64,000 bases of DNA from Thermosphaera aggregans (GTDB lineage: Archaea > Thermoproteota > Thermoprotei_A > Sulfolobales > Desulfurococcaceae), in contig NZ_CP063144.1 in NCBI RefSeq assembly GCF_014962245.1, positions 610,582-674,581 of the forward strand, given 5' to 3'. Numbering within the stretch: the first letter of the stretch is position 1; each line of letters starts with the position of its first letter. The notes below the pieces were generated by a model, which saw nothing but the letters and a program-made list of their open reading frames with translations, was not told the DNA's origin and did not search any database. Below, piece by piece: positions 45,356 to 53,569 of this stretch. The position numbers were made by a program, and so were the translations under genes.

Positions 45356-45964
45356 TCACCCTAGGTTCACGAATTCGTCCTCTGTGAGGGTTGGAGGTAT
45401 TGTTCTCTCAACTATTAGCGGTGCTCCCTGCAACGGCCTGATCTCGACCGTGAACTTCTGGTATTGGGTTAGACCTGTAGGTAGTCCGATGACCACTATG
45501 AACTTCTCGCCCGGTTCCAGCACATAGTCAGCATCTCCCTGTACAATGTATATCTCTGCAACCGGCGTAGTAGTTGCTGAGGGCTGCAGAGTGGATAGGT
45601 CAACAGGCGCGGTTGCTTGCGTGGGATCGTTGCCCATGTTTATCTTACTGTATGCTCCGGTTGGGAGGTTGATGACTATGTCTATCTTATCGCTCGAGAA
45701 GTCTACAGCCAGTTGCCCCGGTGAAACCTTCAATGGTATGTAGATGTATGTCACCTCAGGGCCGGTTTCAACGTATCCCAATACTGACCCATCGACCTCT
45801 AGTGCTGTTGTAGCCTCGTTTAATCCTTGCTGCATTACTTCTTTGCTCTTCTGGGTTGTGTACATTCCCATGTTTATTACTACGAAGGCTAGTGCGGCCG
45901 CGACTATTACGAAGGCTATGAGAACGATCGCGGCCTCAATGCCCACGATACCCTTCTTCGCCAT
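45356..45964 (-). CDS. arlB: Archaellin (archaellum filament subunit)
   Basis: A 202-residue filament protein with a class III signal peptide: MAKKG followed by IVGIEAAIVLIAFVIVAAALAF. A PibD/ArlK-type peptidase would cut after the Gly and leave the hydrophobic helix as the filament core. The remainder is a beta-rich head domain rich in Thr, Pro, Val and Ile. The start is ATG 45964, with ggtgaa at 45971-45976; the longer ORF to 45994 has an N-terminus without family features. It is the only archaellin in the window; no prepilin peptidase is encoded nearby. Confidence 0.92.
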   Translation of the reverse strand: MAKKGIVGIEAAIVLIAFVIVAAALAFVVINMGMYTTQKSKEVMQQGLNEATTALEVDGSVLGYVETGPEVTYIYIPLKVSPGQLAVDFSSDKIDIVINLPTGAYSKINMGNDPTQATAPVDLSTLQPSATTTPVAEIYIVQGDADYVLEPGEKFIVVIGLPTGLTQYQKFTVEIRPLQGAPLIVERTIPPTLTEDEFVNLG

Positions 45965-45997
45965 ACAGGCTTCACCACGGGGATCTCTCCCCAACGT

Positions 45998-47405: not shown

Positions 47406-48935
47406 ATGGCGCGTGTTTTCAAATGGTATGATCTAGCATTGTGGGGTATCGCTAACTCAATCGCATCAGGACTGCTCATCTACTCTGTGCAGGATATTGG
47501 AAGGCAAGGCGTGTATGGTGCCGACGTAGCTATTTCTTACGTTGTTGGAGGACTAGCATTCCTCCCTATAGTGCTCACAACGATTCAAGTAGGAATGTAC
47601 GTGAGGGATATCGGGGGACCGTACGTCTTGATATCTAAGACAATTTCACCCTACATGGCCTTCATATCAACAGCCTTCTACATGTTTGCCAGCGGCGCGC
47701 TTCTCACCATAGGTTTTCTAACATCTCTTTCCATCGAGTTTTTATCCACACCAATATATCTCGCCGGATATTACTCCGGGAACGGCTTCCTGACAAGGCT
47801 CGGCCTGGTTCTAAACTCAACGGTTTCCATGATGGTTTTCTCAGTCATTGTGGTAGCATCAATCTGGATGATCAATACTGGTGGATATGGTGCTGTTAGA
47901 AAGGCTTTATACTTCACCACTCTACTCCCCCTCACAGTTTTATTCGCCCTCTACGGCTTCACAATACTATCTTTCTCAACGATTTCATTAGTTGAGAATG
48001 ATATTGTGGGGTTCCACAGTATTGCGGGAATAGTGTTTAACGGTGAGGAAGCGGCACAGCATTTTCTACAGCCGCTTTTACCCGCGGATATTAGGTCGGC
48101 CACTTTAAACTACGCCTTAATAGTTTTCTGGTCATACCTGGGTTTAGAGATACCTGCGTTTCTCTCGGGCGAGGTAAAGGAGCCAGAGAAAGCCTATGTA
48201 ATCGGAGGGTTCACGGCTTATTTCACGGTTCTTCTAACCTATCTCTTCTCAAGCAGTGTTGTGAAAGCAGCGGGGGTCGAATCACTCGCAGCATACTCAT
48301 ACCTCTATTTTAACAACCCTGATTTGCTTCAAAGGTTTATCACCCTTGAAATGATACCGCAGCCTTCGCTTTTCCTCCCATTTTATCTAACGCTTCGCAA
48401 CCCCTTACTGATTACACTGCTTGGCTTCGCAGGCTTCCTCTTCTTTTTCAACACGGCTTTGACTTCATGGGCTTCATCCTTAAGGGCGATTCATGCTTTA
48501 TCCCGCGACGGCTTCATCCCAAGCTACCTAGGCGAGTTCGACGCTGAGAAAGGAGTCTACCCGGGGGCTAACAACATAGTTTTCGTCGGCTCACTAATCG
48601 GACTTGCCTTGGGATTGATCTCTCGGGAGTTTAAGACCATTCGCTTAGCATTGCTCAGGGTTTTTAACTTCTCCTACGGGGTAATGATCACGCTTCTAGG
48701 GTTCTCACTGGCTCTTTACGGCATAGTTTCTATAGCGGGGACCGCCTCTAAGTACGGGAGGCACAAAGTCACTCTCACCGTTATCACGGGCTTGCTGTGC
48801 TCTCTTATAGGTTTGGTGATCACGGTGAGCACAGGGGTGGGGGCAACCCTCTATGATTTCATAGGAATAGTGATCGCGGGCTTGCTTATCTCCACGTTGC
48901 TGTTAATCTCGGTCCTACATGCTTCAAGGAGGTAG
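47406..48935 (+). CDS. APC family amino acid permease-like transporter
   Basis: A 509-residue membrane protein with about 12 helices. It begins FKWYDLALWGIANSIASG, the usual first helix of the APC superfamily, and contains YALIVFWSYLGLEIPAFLSGEVKEPEKA, the conserved helix 6 to loop region, and SSLRAIHALSRDGFIPSYLG in the loop before helix 9. Substrate unknown; amino acid or polyamine uptake is likely. ATG 47406 is chosen because the longer in-frame start at 47298 would run through the intergenic promoter region shared with the winged-helix gene. Its 3' end overlaps the convergent gene by 12 bp. Confidence 0.82.
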   Translation: MARVFKWYDLALWGIANSIASGLLIYSVQDIGRQGVYGADVAISYVVGGLAFLPIVLTTIQVGMYVRDIGGPYVLISKTISPYMAFISTAFYMFASGALLTIGFLTSLSIEFLSTPIYLAGYYSGNGFLTRLGLVLNSTVSMMVFSVIVVASIWMINTGGYGAVRKALYFTTLLPLTVLFALYGFTILSFSTISLVENDIVGFHSIAGIVFNGEEAAQHFLQPLLPADIRSATLNYALIVFWSYLGLEIPAFLSGEVKEPEKAYVIGGFTAYFTVLLTYLFSSSVVKAAGVESLAAYSYLYFNNPDLLQRFITLEMIPQPSLFLPFYLTLRNPLLITLLGFAGFLFFFNTALTSWASSLRAIHALSRDGFIPSYLGEFDAEKGVYPGANNIVFVGSLIGLALGLISREFKTIRLALLRVFNFSYGVMITLLGFSLALYGIVSIAGTASKYGRHKVTLTVITGLLCSLIGLVITVSTGVGATLYDFIGIVIAGLLISTLLLISVLHASRR

Positions 48936-49505
48936 CCTTTCATAGGTCCGTAAAACCCACATTGTCGCGACCACAGCGTTGAGAATGGAGAGAAATAAGA
49001 GTGGAATAGGGGATAGTACGATGTTGGCTAGAGGCGATATCTCCATGCTTATTCTCCCAAGGATCAAGATTCCAGCAGAATTTGTCTCGACACACTCCCC
49101 GATAAGGGATTCAACCACTCTCCCTATGTAAACGGTGTGAGTCATATAGAAGAAGGTTGTGGAGAATATAAAGGCCAAGGAGGTCGGGAACATTAGCCTG
49201 GCTAGTAATGGATTATGCCTCTTGTAGACCCAGTATGTAACTGAATTGAGTCCTAGGACTAGTAGGAAAAGACTGTTCAAAGTGATCGGTAGGCTGAGGC
49301 TTACGGCTTTCTCAAGCTCAGGTATTCTGACCAGTGTATCACCTATTTTCAACTGGTAGAAGGAGAAGGCTATGAAGCCCTTTAATACCCCGTCCAGGAT
49401 GTAAAGAGGTATTATTAGCACGAGGAGTATGGTTAAGCTGTAGACTATTGCAAAGCATCCTGCAATAAACTGATAGGCCAGTAAATTATTCTTATTACTT
49501 GTCAA
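48924..49505 (-). CDS. Four-helix membrane protein of the pilus-like operon
   Basis: A 193-residue protein with four likely membrane spans (FIAGCFAIVYSLTILLVLII; LPITLNSLFLLVLGLNSVTY; LAFIFSTTFFYM; LSPIPLLFLSILNAVVATMW) and one Cys in an external loop (IGECVET). Its start overlaps the end of the signal peptidase gene by 11 bp, so it is the last gene of that operon. I do not recognise a family. It may help export or anchor the secreted products (inference). Confidence 0.6.
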   Translation of the reverse strand: MTSNKNNLLAYQFIAGCFAIVYSLTILLVLIIPLYILDGVLKGFIAFSFYQLKIGDTLVRIPELEKAVSLSLPITLNSLFLLVLGLNSVTYWVYKRHNPLLARLMFPTSLAFIFSTTFFYMTHTVYIGRVVESLIGECVETNSAGILILGRISMEISPLANIVLSPIPLLFLSILNAVVATMWVLRTYERLPP

Positions 49506-50607
49506 GCCTCCCCACCCATGTAAGGGTCTGGTTCATGAAGGTGTATCTTACTTCAACATAGCCTTGTGTTGTAATCCCTGCGAGGTCGATTTCCCTGGTC
49601 TCAAAAGGCTGGAGGGTGAAGCCAGGTGCAGAGAATTCTCTAACCTCACCCATATACTGGACTCTTAGACCTTCAACGTTGCTCCTGATCTTGTAGCCGA
49701 GTATTTCAATGGGGACGGGATTAGGGTTAAAAATCACTAGTTTATCATTCATGACTGATAAAACGGGCTTCTTCCAGTCTATTACAAAGGGGTATTTCCC
49801 TATTAGGAATCCCAGGTCTAGTGAAAGTCTTAGCTTAACCATGAAAGCTGAGAGATTGTTAACGTAAAGTTGCGCGTAAAACTCGGCGGGCGGATGAACC
49901 AGAACTTTATCGCTATCGATATAGTAGCTGGAGCATTGCATTGTTAATGATTGAGAAATTAAAAGACATTCCTCAACCCCCTTTATTCTCAACTCCGTTG
50001 AGTGATAGTCTATGGTTAATGCCGAGTAACCGGCTTCTGAGAATAATCTTGCAAGGCTCATGCTAGGAAGCGATAACTTTGTCAGAGCCGGAGGGGTTTG
50101 CAAAACATAAATAGTGAGATAGGTAAGATTGAGTAGCAGAAAAATAAGGAACACGAATGTTTCCAGTACAAAGGCTTGTTTGAGACCTTTCCACGGACTT
50201 ACTGGGAAGAAGACGAATATGAGTGATATCATGATTAATGGAAGCCATATTAGCAACGGTATGGCACCTATTACTTTAAACCTTATAAGCTCGGTCGAAA
50301 TAGGGGGGTCGTTAGAAGGATTATAATCGCCCCTGGTAATAGCGTAAGTTCCGTCCACCTGTATAAGCCTATGTACGACACATGTTGATACATCGATACA
50401 ATAGATTACCACATCTCCCTCCTTATACGAACTAATGAAGGATCCCACCCCGATAACAAGGTCGCCCGGCTTCAGCGTGGGATACATTGAAAAGCCTGAA
50501 ACTGTGAAAAAACCTAGCGGAGTGGGTATGAATCTTGCTCCAATACTAAAACTTACTATTAGAATTAGGTATATTATTCGGATAATTCTTCTCATCCTCT
50601 CCTTCAC
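49495..50607 (-). CDS. Signal peptidase I (S26B-like) with a C-terminal beta domain
   Basis: A membrane serine protease that removes Sec signal peptides. After one N-terminal helix, TVSGFSMYPTLKPGDLVI carries the nucleophilic Ser, CVVHRLIQVDG the catalytic His of the archaeal/ER type (in place of Lys) and ITRGDYNPSNDPP the last conserved box. A second and third helix follow (WLPLIMISLIFVFFPV, FVLETFVFLIFLLL). About 210 more residues form a beta-rich domain not found in the housekeeping enzyme. It overlaps its upstream neighbour by 4 bp (ATGA type), so it is a dedicated peptidase like SipW of Bacillus biofilm operons. Confidence 0.85.
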   Translation of the reverse strand: MKERMRRIIRIIYLILIVSFSIGARFIPTPLGFFTVSGFSMYPTLKPGDLVIGVGSFISSYKEGDVVIYCIDVSTCVVHRLIQVDGTYAITRGDYNPSNDPPISTELIRFKVIGAIPLLIWLPLIMISLIFVFFPVSPWKGLKQAFVLETFVFLIFLLLNLTYLTIYVLQTPPALTKLSLPSMSLARLFSEAGYSALTIDYHSTELRIKGVEECLLISQSLTMQCSSYYIDSDKVLVHPPAEFYAQLYVNNLSAFMVKLRLSLDLGFLIGKYPFVIDWKKPVLSVMNDKLVIFNPNPVPIEILGYKIRSNVEGLRVQYMGEVREFSAPGFTLQPFETREIDLAGITTQGYVEVRYTFMNQTLTWVGRLDK

Positions 50608-52061
50608 GGTTCTCCACCTCCTAAACCGTAGAGAATAAGAGGATATGAGACACAGACAGATTTACTCGAAAAACAGTACTCAACGGAGAGTTTAGCCGTG
50701 TAGACGCTTCTGAAAAAGAGTCCGCTTACAGTTATTTTTAAACCTCCGTCTCGAAGGGTCAAGGTAGACGTGCGAGGGGATATTACCTCCCCGTTCACAA
50801 CCATTATCGGGTATGAACTCGTGCTTGAAGATTCCAGCGTGATATTAAATGTAGCCTCGCCTACCGCTTCAATAGATTCTAGGATGAGGCTTACCTCAAA
50901 CTCTTCTGCAAGGATTGAATACAGTTGAATTACACTTAGTTTCAGGTCGGAGGAATTAATGTAGAAGAATACTGTAGCACCTGTATACGTAGGATCTGCG
51001 TATCCCTCGAAAGCCTTAGTGCTTGAGACCAAATAATCCTCGCCACCTATCAGTGGAATAGATGTTTTCACCGAGCAAGAAGTATTATTCGAAGAGATCT
51101 GTAGTACACCGCCATCGCCCACTCCCGTGACAAGGTCTTTGACAACGCTTAGCATCGCTATCCCATTAACATCTGACAGCCCCTCCCCTACGAGGCTTCC
51201 ATTCGAATCGTATAACCGAGCAGAAGCATTGGGGGAGAGTCCTGTGACATTCAGGTATGCAGGGTTCCTTTTCGAAATGACGAAGTCGTCGAACATAGCG
51301 CTCCCCCCATCTATCTCCAACCCCACGTATTGAGCAGGGAACCTTCTGTTGCTGGTGCTTGTTGCTGAAACCGAGGTTAAGTATACACCGTTTTCCGAGT
51401 AGACTTCCGCGGTGATGACGATGGAGGTTGGACTGTACTGGTAGCGTACTATTAATGTGTACCATTGGTCAGTATAGGAGAAGTTCGGGGAAGATGCCAA
51501 TTGACTCCACCCATTAAGACTTTCAACGTTATAGCTCCAAATGTTTAGTCTTGCGCTAGCGCCAGAAGGGTTTATGGAGATCTCATACAAGCGGTTAAGG
51601 TTATTGTTAATCAAGACTATTCCAGCCCAACCTGTTCCCGCGTATCTTATTTTAACACCCACGTAGAACCCCACGTACGAGCTCAAAGCAAGGTTTAAAT
51701 AATATTGTGACGCTCCTCCTATTCCACCATTGTTATCCTGACCACTCACCCCGCCTCCTTTATGACCACTTCCAGAGATCCACCAGCTACCCCCTCTTGC
51801 CAACCAATCAGGGGAGGTTTGCTCGAAATCGCTCCAGTAAATAGTGTTGTTAGACCTCTTGGTGATATTGAAAGGCACGAGCGGGCTGTCTAAAACTGTT
51901 AAAATAACGGGAGGTGGAACAGGAGTGATTTGTGCTTGCAAAGGGTTAAACACGTAAACCCCTGCGTGCAAGCTTGTGAAGCAGGAAGCCGCAAGGAACA
52001 AGACGAGTAGGGTTTTCAATGATGTTTTAAAAAATTTGTCGAAAAAGTGGATTTGGTCCAC
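50604..52061 (-). CDS. Secreted beta-sandwich protein of the pilus-like operon
   Basis: A 485-residue exported protein. The N-terminal hydrophobic span (SLKTLLVLFLAASCFTSLHA) is followed by VFNPLQAQITPVPPPVI, which resembles the same place in the preceding gene's product. Residues about 75-270 look like a LamG/concanavalin-type jelly roll (ARGGSWWISGSG, GLEIDGGSAMFDDFVI), then two further beta domains follow (one opening NPAYLNVTGLSP). It could be a minor or tip subunit or an adhesin. The start is GTG 52061, with gaggtga about nine bases upstream inside the preceding gene's end. Confidence 0.65.
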   Translation of the reverse strand: MDQIHFFDKFFKTSLKTLLVLFLAASCFTSLHAGVYVFNPLQAQITPVPPPVILTVLDSPLVPFNITKRSNNTIYWSDFEQTSPDWLARGGSWWISGSGHKGGGVSGQDNNGGIGGASQYYLNLALSSYVGFYVGVKIRYAGTGWAGIVLINNNLNRLYEISINPSGASARLNIWSYNVESLNGWSQLASSPNFSYTDQWYTLIVRYQYSPTSIVITAEVYSENGVYLTSVSATSTSNRRFPAQYVGLEIDGGSAMFDDFVISKRNPAYLNVTGLSPNASARLYDSNGSLVGEGLSDVNGIAMLSVVKDLVTGVGDGGVLQISSNNTSCSVKTSIPLIGGEDYLVSSTKAFEGYADPTYTGATVFFYINSSDLKLSVIQLYSILAEEFEVSLILESIEAVGEATFNITLESSSTSSYPIMVVNGEVISPRTSTLTLRDGGLKITVSGLFFRSVYTAKLSVEYCFSSKSVCVSYPLILYGLGGGEP

Positions 52062-52075
52062 AATGATGATTCACC

Positions 52076-52648
52076 TCACGGCGGCGTCTCAGTGTTTACA
52101 GTGCTGTATACTAGTTCTAGAAGGATAGTCCCGCCTCCGGTTGGGGGCGTTGTTGAGCTACCTCCGTTGGTTCCGTATATGAATTCAAAGTCAATTCTAA
52201 GCTCCCCGTTGCCGTTTAGAACCACCCAGCCACCTGGTTGCAGCTGAGTTGTTAACAAGTCCACCTCTCCTACCTTGGTTGCCCCGTCGTAGAGAAGTAG
52301 TTTGGCACGAGCCAGGTTCCCATCAGTGATTGTCGAGTGGATGTTCACTTTCACGTAGTAGACCTGGGAGTCCAGGTTCTTAATTCTTAACACGTCCAAG
52401 TAGTATGTTCTCTGATAGGTGGGGTGTAGCGTGACTGATGCACTGGTACCTGTTGCATCAATGATGGTTGAAATAGTTGTCCCGTACAAGTCTCTCTGAT
52501 TGTTATTGCTTCCTTCGACAAATATGACTGGTGGTGGGGTAGGGGAGACCTGAACGCTCGCAGGATAGTATACGAATACGCTGGCGAATACTATACTTGC
52601 TAAGATCGTTGCAACGGTTAAACCCAGTATATACTTTCCGGCTTGCAT
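52076..52648 (-). CDS. TasA/bundling-pilin-like secreted protein
   Basis: A 190-residue exported protein. It starts QAGKYILGLTVATILASIVFASVFVYY, a Sec signal or membrane helix ending near Ala-Ser, then SVQVSPTPPPVIFVEGSNN and a beta-rich domain: SVTLHPTYQRTYYLDVLRI, then QVYYVKVNIHS, and LRIDFEFIY. The pattern of a single jelly-roll-like domain after a signal-peptidase-I-type leader, next to its own peptidase, matches camelysin/TasA proteins and the archaeal bundling pilin AbpA. It lacks a class III (K-G) pilin leader. It is first in the operon, with a TATA box and an agaggga ribosome site. Confidence 0.6.
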   Translation of the reverse strand: MQAGKYILGLTVATILASIVFASVFVYYPASVQVSPTPPPVIFVEGSNNNQRDLYGTTISTIIDATGTSASVTLHPTYQRTYYLDVLRIKNLDSQVYYVKVNIHSTITDGNLARAKLLLYDGATKVGEVDLLTTQLQPGGWVVLNGNGELRIDFEFIYGTNGGSSTTPPTGGGTILLELVYSTVNTETPP

Positions 52649-52738: not shown

Positions 52739-52774
52739 CTTGAAAATTAATTTACAAATTATGAGGAGTTGGTC

Positions 52775-53569
52775 TTGATACCAGAAGCAGGAGCCACCGA
52801 TTCATTGAGCAATGATTGTGGCGTGAGTTTTTCGCCAATGCTTCGAGACGCTTCTCAGAAGATAAGCTTAAGCAGGCTAAGAGACCTGCTTGAGCTTGAA
52901 AGACTGGAGCATCTTGGTCAAACCTTGAGGGATTTGGCACGGGAGGTTTCAAAGGCTCGGGAGGAAGATTACTTGCTATTAGATTATAGGAATGAGAAAG
53001 GTGTTAACTGCTTAATTTTGGCGAAGGCTTCAACGATCGTCAACGTTGAGTGTCTTGGGGTTGAAAAAAACGCTGATAAATACGTCGAGCTTCTTGCTCA
53101 TGCATGCATAGAAGGCAGGGGTGAGCTTCGAGTTTACAGAGTTAAACCTATCTTTATCGAGTGGTTGAAGAAGTACGAGGTCGGGATACCTGTTCTTGAC
53201 AAGGCTCATGAGAAAATGTTCACCGAATTCCAAAAGGTCTTTACCGCTATCCTAGACGGGAGAGTGGACCAGGTTCCCGGCTTGATTAAAGCAGCCTACG
53301 AGTCTATTCTGGAGCATTTCAGGGTTGAAGAGCAGTTGATGACGAAGTATAACTACCCTCGGGCTAAGAGGAGGGAGCATGAAGAAAGCCATGCAGAGTT
53401 TGAAAACATTGTTAAGAGGCTTGTTCAAACCGTGGATGAAGGCCGGTTTGTAGATCTGTACATTCAGCAGTACCAGTTCCTACTAACCTATTTAGACTAC
53501 ATGTTAAGGGAGGATAAGGAGTTCACAAGCTTTCTTCTTGAAAAATGCGGGGTTTACTGCACTGTTTAA
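52775..53569 (+). CDS. Hemerythrin-domain protein with one altered iron ligand
   Basis: A 264-residue protein. The N-terminal 125 residues form an unrecognised alpha/beta domain (YLLLDYRNEKGVNCLILAK). The C-terminal part is a four-helix hemerythrin domain: LDKAHEKMF (H145), LEHFRVEEQLM (H181, E185), HEESH (H202, H206) and LDYMLREDKE. The last motif normally reads with His where Y242 stands, so one of five His ligands is replaced by Tyr while the Asp (D247) is kept. The domain may sense O2, NO or iron. TTG 52775 is chosen as gaggag (52763-52768) lies six bases upstream. Its end overlaps the convergent gene by four bases. Confidence 0.8.
   Translation: MIPEAGATDSLSNDCGVSFSPMLRDASQKISLSRLRDLLELERLEHLGQTLRDLAREVSKAREEDYLLLDYRNEKGVNCLILAKASTIVNVECLGVEKNADKYVELLAHACIEGRGELRVYRVKPIFIEWLKKYEVGIPVLDKAHEKMFTEFQKVFTAILDGRVDQVPGLIKAAYESILEHFRVEEQLMTKYNYPRAKRREHEESHAEFENIVKRLVQTVDEGRFVDLYIQQYQFLLTYLDYMLREDKEFTSFLLEKCGVYCTV

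Follow-up and report, generated by a model that had tools for sequence, protein, structure and literature searches.

The closest described relative of the system reported here is the thread of Sulfolobus acidocaldarius, a filament whose pilin (Saci_0406, encoded within the cluster saci_0404-0409) has been solved by electron cryo-microscopy (7pnb and 8rzl). Threads are independent of PibD and use a signal peptidase I site, and the neighbouring genes saci_0404, saci_0407 and saci_0408 are unexplained: the thread papers state that the roles of these genes and the assembly pathway are unknown (PMC9715654, PMC11607397). Another group of donor-strand filaments is the bundling fibres of the TasA/AbpA/AbpX type (tapA-sipW-tasA operons), of which the ABPx fibres of Pyrodictium abyssi are an example (PMC11952670). 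Here, we describe a four-gene operon from the thermophilic archaeon Thermosphaera aggregans. The best explanation of the evidence as a whole, and a probable one in our view, is that this operon encodes an archaeal thread-type filament, with steps of export, cleavage, assembly and adhesion that we propose below.

The operon lies in a 64,000-nucleotide stretch (the window; contig NZ_CP063144.1, positions 610,582 to 674,581) of a genome that is a single contig of 1,305,106 bp. An earlier interpretation that saw only the letters and the open reading frames (the sequence-only reading) had placed four minus-strand genes at 48924-52648, and this placement was correct. It had described two secreted proteins, a signal peptidase I with an extra domain, and a four-helix membrane protein. 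These descriptions also hold: A and B each start with a hydrophobic leader that ends in Ala, transmembrane segments flank the peptidase domain of C, and D has four hydrophobic segments by hydropathy. The four genes are:

52076-52648, minus strand: A, 190 amino acids, ATG start; thread-type pilin, predicted filament subunit
50604-52061, minus strand: B, 485 amino acids, GTG start; secreted thread-associated protein, putative cap or tip adhesin
49495-50607, minus strand: C, 370 amino acids, GTG start; signal peptidase I plus ectodomain
48924-49505, minus strand: D, 193 amino acids, TTG start; four-transmembrane-segment protein, putative assembly platform

The gap between A and B is 14 nucleotides, while B and C overlap by 4 nucleotides and C and D by 11. 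No Pfam or NCBIfam family matched A, B or D above its cut-off.

As a single-sequence query, A gave just a hint of similarity to the thread (7pnb, E = 1.3). A profile built from 26 homologues of A matched both thread structures (7pnb at E = 3e-9, over the full length, and 8rzl at E = 2.4e-4). In a profile-profile comparison (hhalign), A matched a set of seven thread-type proteins with 99% probability (E = 4e-18), and the reverse search with the thread profile found the window's A at E = 5e-11, along with most of the other A proteins. These comparisons show that A is a full-length homologue of the S. acidocaldarius pilin. The alignment also assigns roles to parts of A:

52583-52648, minus strand: signal peptide, residues 1-22, predicted cut after Ala22
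52517-52582, minus strand: predicted donor strand, residues 23-44 (SVFVYYPASVQVSPTPPPVIFV), aligned with the donor strand of Saci_0406, from which its role is taken (PMC9715654)
52079-52516, minus strand: predicted beta-rich head, residues 45-190, from the full-length profile alignment to Saci_0406

Ala22 corresponds to the Ala that precedes the cut site of Saci_0406, and it is invariant in 33/33 aligned homologues. In the same alignment, V25, Y29 and the PP region of the strand after the cut site are largely kept. With its invariant Ala at -1, A carries a signal peptidase I leader. As the sequence-only reading had said, this is not a class III leader; A has no match to archaellin or pilin leaders, whereas the archaellin at 45356-45994 does. 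No gene for an assembly ATPase or platform of the type IV pilus superfamily lies inside the four-gene operon. The idea of a donor-strand surface filament that is not a type IV pilus and is distinct from the neighbouring archaellum is supported, although the filament itself is predicted. The three A proteins from this genus (window, L060 and L061) lack N-glycosylation sequons.

The sequence-only reading had gone further and assigned the operon to the TasA/AbpA bundling pili. The layout is analogous (a subunit, a second subunit and a dedicated signal peptidase), the two kinds of filament would work alike, and the profile of A has a weak likeness to the AbpX-like family (probability 56%, E = 1e-4), so that a very remote relation linking these families is no more than possible. 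But the profile of A matched thread structures only: no TasA, AbpX or cannula chain was found at E ≤ 10, even though AbpX was in the structure library. The "LDVLRIKN" segment that the sequence-only reading had pointed out is the conserved YYkDIlxIxN segment of the A family, not a TasA signature.

Also, this genome has a separate AbpX/TasA-type operon, which we found by searching for its other signal peptidases (at G000:C1:371-376 kb, or about 371100-376100, which is L094:5107-10103 in the locus taken from G000:C1:366000-384000; with the AbpX-type locus at L094:6527-9060). Its small secreted proteins have a GVATAMWxETLxxNTY-type leader and are located before a 396-amino-acid peptidase and a DUF5305-like membrane protein. 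The profile of these secreted proteins matched AbpX at E = 1e-12 and 4.5e-9, and the NCBIfam matches of the peptidase include SipW, below that model's cut-off. (An Sso10a-type DNA-binding gene is also within this cluster, and homologues are present in 30 of 61 genomes searched.) Given the thread-only matches, the weak score against the AbpX-like family and the AbpX-type locus elsewhere in the genome, we rejected TasA/AbpA membership of A and consider that explanation very improbable. The operon logic of the sequence-only reading is right, but it fits the other filament family. Because A matches Saci_0406 rather than TasA or AbpX, and because the AbpX-type operon is elsewhere, we conclude that the window's operon is most likely a thread-type donor-strand filament module.

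Relatives of the operon are widespread. Clear homologues of A are encoded by 24 of the 61 close and order-level relatives; with a profile, we found them in 55 of 139 genomes of the order. Across the phylum, 66 of the 397 genomes sampled have matches to A. We annotated the A loci of the relatives with iterated profiles. Among 44 A loci, C was near A in 36 (with the Ser/His/Asp peptidase motif intact in 28 of the C genes), D in 33, and B in 26; these counts depend on thresholds and are lower bounds, as diverged partners in the Sulfolobaceae were missed. The gene orders were A-B-C-D, A-C-D, A-C-(DB) and A(A)-C-D-B, where (DB) is a fusion gene. Because homologues of these genes cluster in many other genomes of the order, the four-gene cluster is a module and not a chance arrangement. 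Divergent from A, at 52769-53569 of the window, is a gene for a hemerythrin-domain protein; in both of the other genomes from the genus, a reading frame of the same size (264 amino acids) and orientation is at that position (L060:4618-5412 and L061:9014-9808).

The signal peptidase of the operon, C, has these domains:

50272-50607, minus strand: peptidase domain, residues 1-112, with Ser40, His79 and Asp94/Asp100; TIGR02228
49498-50094, minus strand: ectodomain, residues 172-370, two predicted Ig/FnIII-like beta domains (AlphaFold, with a predicted local distance difference test score, or pLDDT, of 88)

C scored 59.8 bits against the NCBIfam model for archaeal signal peptidase I (TIGR02228, cut-off 51.85), and we take Ser40, His79 and Asp94/Asp100 to be the catalytic set of archaeal type I enzymes. 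So, the operon has the dedicated signal peptidase that the sequence-only reading had pointed to, but fused to a thread-associated ectodomain. The model of the peptidase domain superimposes on the streptococcal SipA structure 4n31 at 2.4 Å (Foldseek). SipA has a signal-peptidase fold, is encoded with a pilus, and is essential for pilus polymerisation (PMC4049620). Unlike C, SipA lacks the catalytic residues, and C adds the ectodomain. We also considered whether the ectodomain is a PapD-like chaperone, and we dropped this idea because pilus chaperones were low in the Foldseek list, with poor root-mean-square deviations.

C might merely be a second signal peptidase in a thread operon, beside the 177-amino-acid general peptidase that the genome also encodes, with an ectodomain that plays no part in assembly. 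Its peptidase domain does fit the general archaeal model, and bacterial SipW, which is a dedicated peptidase, is co-encoded with TapA and TasA (PMC10151520). However, the ectodomain persists next to A without any peptidase in four loci (L078, L080, L082 and L084) and in the Sulfolobaceae, so the ectodomain must do something in its own right, and we view this alternative as unlikely.

In the Sulfolobaceae, the thread neighbours of interest are Saci_0407 and Saci_0408. We take locus L121 to be S. acidocaldarius; its A protein agrees with the 7pnb chain (Saci_0406) along the aligned stretch that we compared. Saci_0407/0408 (L121:7652-8483) correspond to one continuous gene in a sister genome (L122:7071-7901), so the S. 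acidocaldarius record has this gene split into two overlapping frames. A Sulfolobaceae-type protein from L123 matched the profile of C (E = 7e-7 and 2e-8) as well as the single-gene orthologue of Saci_0407/8 in L122 (E = 1e-8). Only through this intermediate can the ectodomain of C be linked to Saci_0407/0408. Next to saci_0408, on the opposite strand, is a protein with four transmembrane segments (L121:8694-9494) that is homologous to such proteins beside the thread genes in L122-L125, and it is a possible counterpart of D. In two Sulfolobaceae-type genomes, genes for ParA/MinD-like ATPases (judged by eye from the P-loop) also lie beside the thread genes and the four-segment gene (L124:3037-3618, L125:899-1486 and L125:4253-5116).

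B appears to be built on the same plan as A:

51963-52061, minus strand: signal peptide, residues 1-33
51900-51962, minus strand: predicted donor-strand segment, A-like, residues 34-54; A-profile match, with the "VxPxPPPV" motif common to A and B
51261-51863, minus strand: predicted lectin-like jelly roll, residues ~67-267 (Foldseek)
50622-51044, minus strand: C-terminal beta domain, residues ~340-480; A-like head in relatives

The profile of A matched residues 16-54 of the window's B (the leader and the donor strand) at 14.4 bits, and this N-terminal match is the only one that stands alone. The same region matched in most of the relatives of B, with up to 30.5 bits, and positions 54-181 of the profile matched near the C-terminus of many of them, reaching 23.4 bits at best. 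The highest score among shuffled B proteins was 4.2 bits. The AlphaFold model of B (pLDDT 89) is all-beta beyond the leader. Its Foldseek list includes legume lectins, ConA-like modules and the SasG A-domain, and also the pilus proteins CfaB and CfaE; the jelly roll has no Pfam match. (We rejected the sequence matches of B in PDB, which were at chance level.) B thus resembles a thread pilin whose strand and head are separated by an inserted lectin-like domain. By analogy to Saci_0405 and to adhesins, B is likely a cap or tip adhesin. There is no clear orthologue of Saci_0405 at the window's operon, and B may take its place.

In relatives, D is conserved adjoining C, and in four loci it is fused ahead of B (L140:4267-6405, L067:2951-5020, L069:3919-5982 and L077:8425-10602). 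The fusion proteins have a hydrophobic leader-like segment that ends in Ala directly before the donor strand of B. These fusions look like polyproteins for cleavage by a signal peptidase, which would be needed to part D from B. They hint, but do not prove, that all three proteins (B, C and D) work at a single site in the membrane.

Overall, the operon resembles the S. acidocaldarius thread cluster in its subunit, which is homologous over its full length, in the signal peptidase I site (Ala|x), in the N-terminal donor strand, in a large co-encoded protein, in a neighbour that is linked via an intermediate to the ectodomain of C, and in a neighbour with four transmembrane segments. It differs in having a fused signal peptidase with an intact motif and a lectin-like domain in B. 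With chaperone-usher pili (type 1, P, CFA/I), the system shares the donor-strand logic and an adhesin-like subunit made of a binding domain and a pilin-like domain, but it has no usher, and sequence comparison found no homology of A to chaperone-usher pilins. For the published thread, the resemblance is considered convergent (PMC9715654).

Several observations weigh against a thread-type filament. A keeps neither residue of the intersubunit isopeptide bond of Saci_0406 (Asp24 and Asn57): Ser23 replaces Asp24, and there is a gap at Asn57. (Of the seven members of the thread alignment, just the two from Sulfolobus have Asn57, so we did not treat it as family-defining. All 26 relatives of A have Asn48 in a GSN motif, so it is possibly another isopeptide acceptor.) A has no N-glycan sequons, as compared to 5 in Saci_0406 and 0-8 in relatives of A; dense N-glycosylation is described for Saci_0406, and we did not regard this as a defining trait either. 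The fold of A, as a monomer and as a multimer, is taken by alignment to the solved Saci_0406. The C-terminal head of the window's B is below noise with the A profile, and thresholded profiles did not detect B near A in 18 of 44 loci. Direct profile comparisons were weak both for C against the Sulfolobaceae 0407/8 group and for D against the four-segment Saci protein; the putative place of D in the module rests on position and topology. Finally, cleavage-coupled assembly is a model, and the thread is predicted here from genes.

With the last point, the non-conserved isopeptide residues and the lectin-like domain in mind, A and B could be members of the thread family that do not polymerise, such as glycan-binding or S-layer-associated proteins of the cell surface. 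Yet both proteins keep the donor-strand segment, A is similar over its full length to a pilin that does polymerise, and a membrane protein and a peptidase are inherited along with them. This makes a non-polymerising role quite unlikely, and we prefer the thread-type filament.

Such a filament might be made as follows. A and B would be exported via Sec and would remain tethered by their leaders. C, rather than the 177-amino-acid general peptidase, would cleave A after Ala22 and B after Ala33. Cleavage would free the N-terminal strand, which the ectodomain of C and D could hand over, so that it enters the groove of the adjacent subunit, as in the Sulfolobus thread. Since the peptidase is joined to a double-Ig domain that would lie close to the membrane and beside D, release and assembly might be coupled. 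Carrying a lectin-like domain, B would start or end the filament and bind glycans, so the fibre would serve adhesion or aggregation. In a stronger form of this model, which is tentative and which we think somewhat doubtful, the dedicated peptidase releases each tethered subunit, the double-Ig ectodomain passes the cut strand onward, and the Sulfolobaceae lost the peptidase but kept the ectodomain (Saci_0407/0408). If true, this would be donor-strand assembly with neither an usher nor a soluble chaperone.

A literature search, which missed most subscription papers and all bioRxiv preprints, turned up no account of a thread operon that includes a signal peptidase. What is new here is a dedicated signal peptidase, with an intact motif, fused to a putative thread-assembly domain, along with the cleavage-coupled route that we infer from it. 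The spread of A across the phylum extends threads well beyond Sulfolobus. An archaellum, an AbpX/TasA-type locus and a thread-type locus can coexist in a single small genome, and the AbpX/TasA-type and thread-type loci each have their own signal peptidase. The operon and its relatives also give the unexplained Sulfolobus genes testable roles: a peptidase tied to a domain of the 0407/0408 type, a membrane partner with four helices, and a cap or adhesin with a lectin-like domain. More broadly, the operon's own fused signal-cutting enzyme suggests how thread-type fibres may be assembled.

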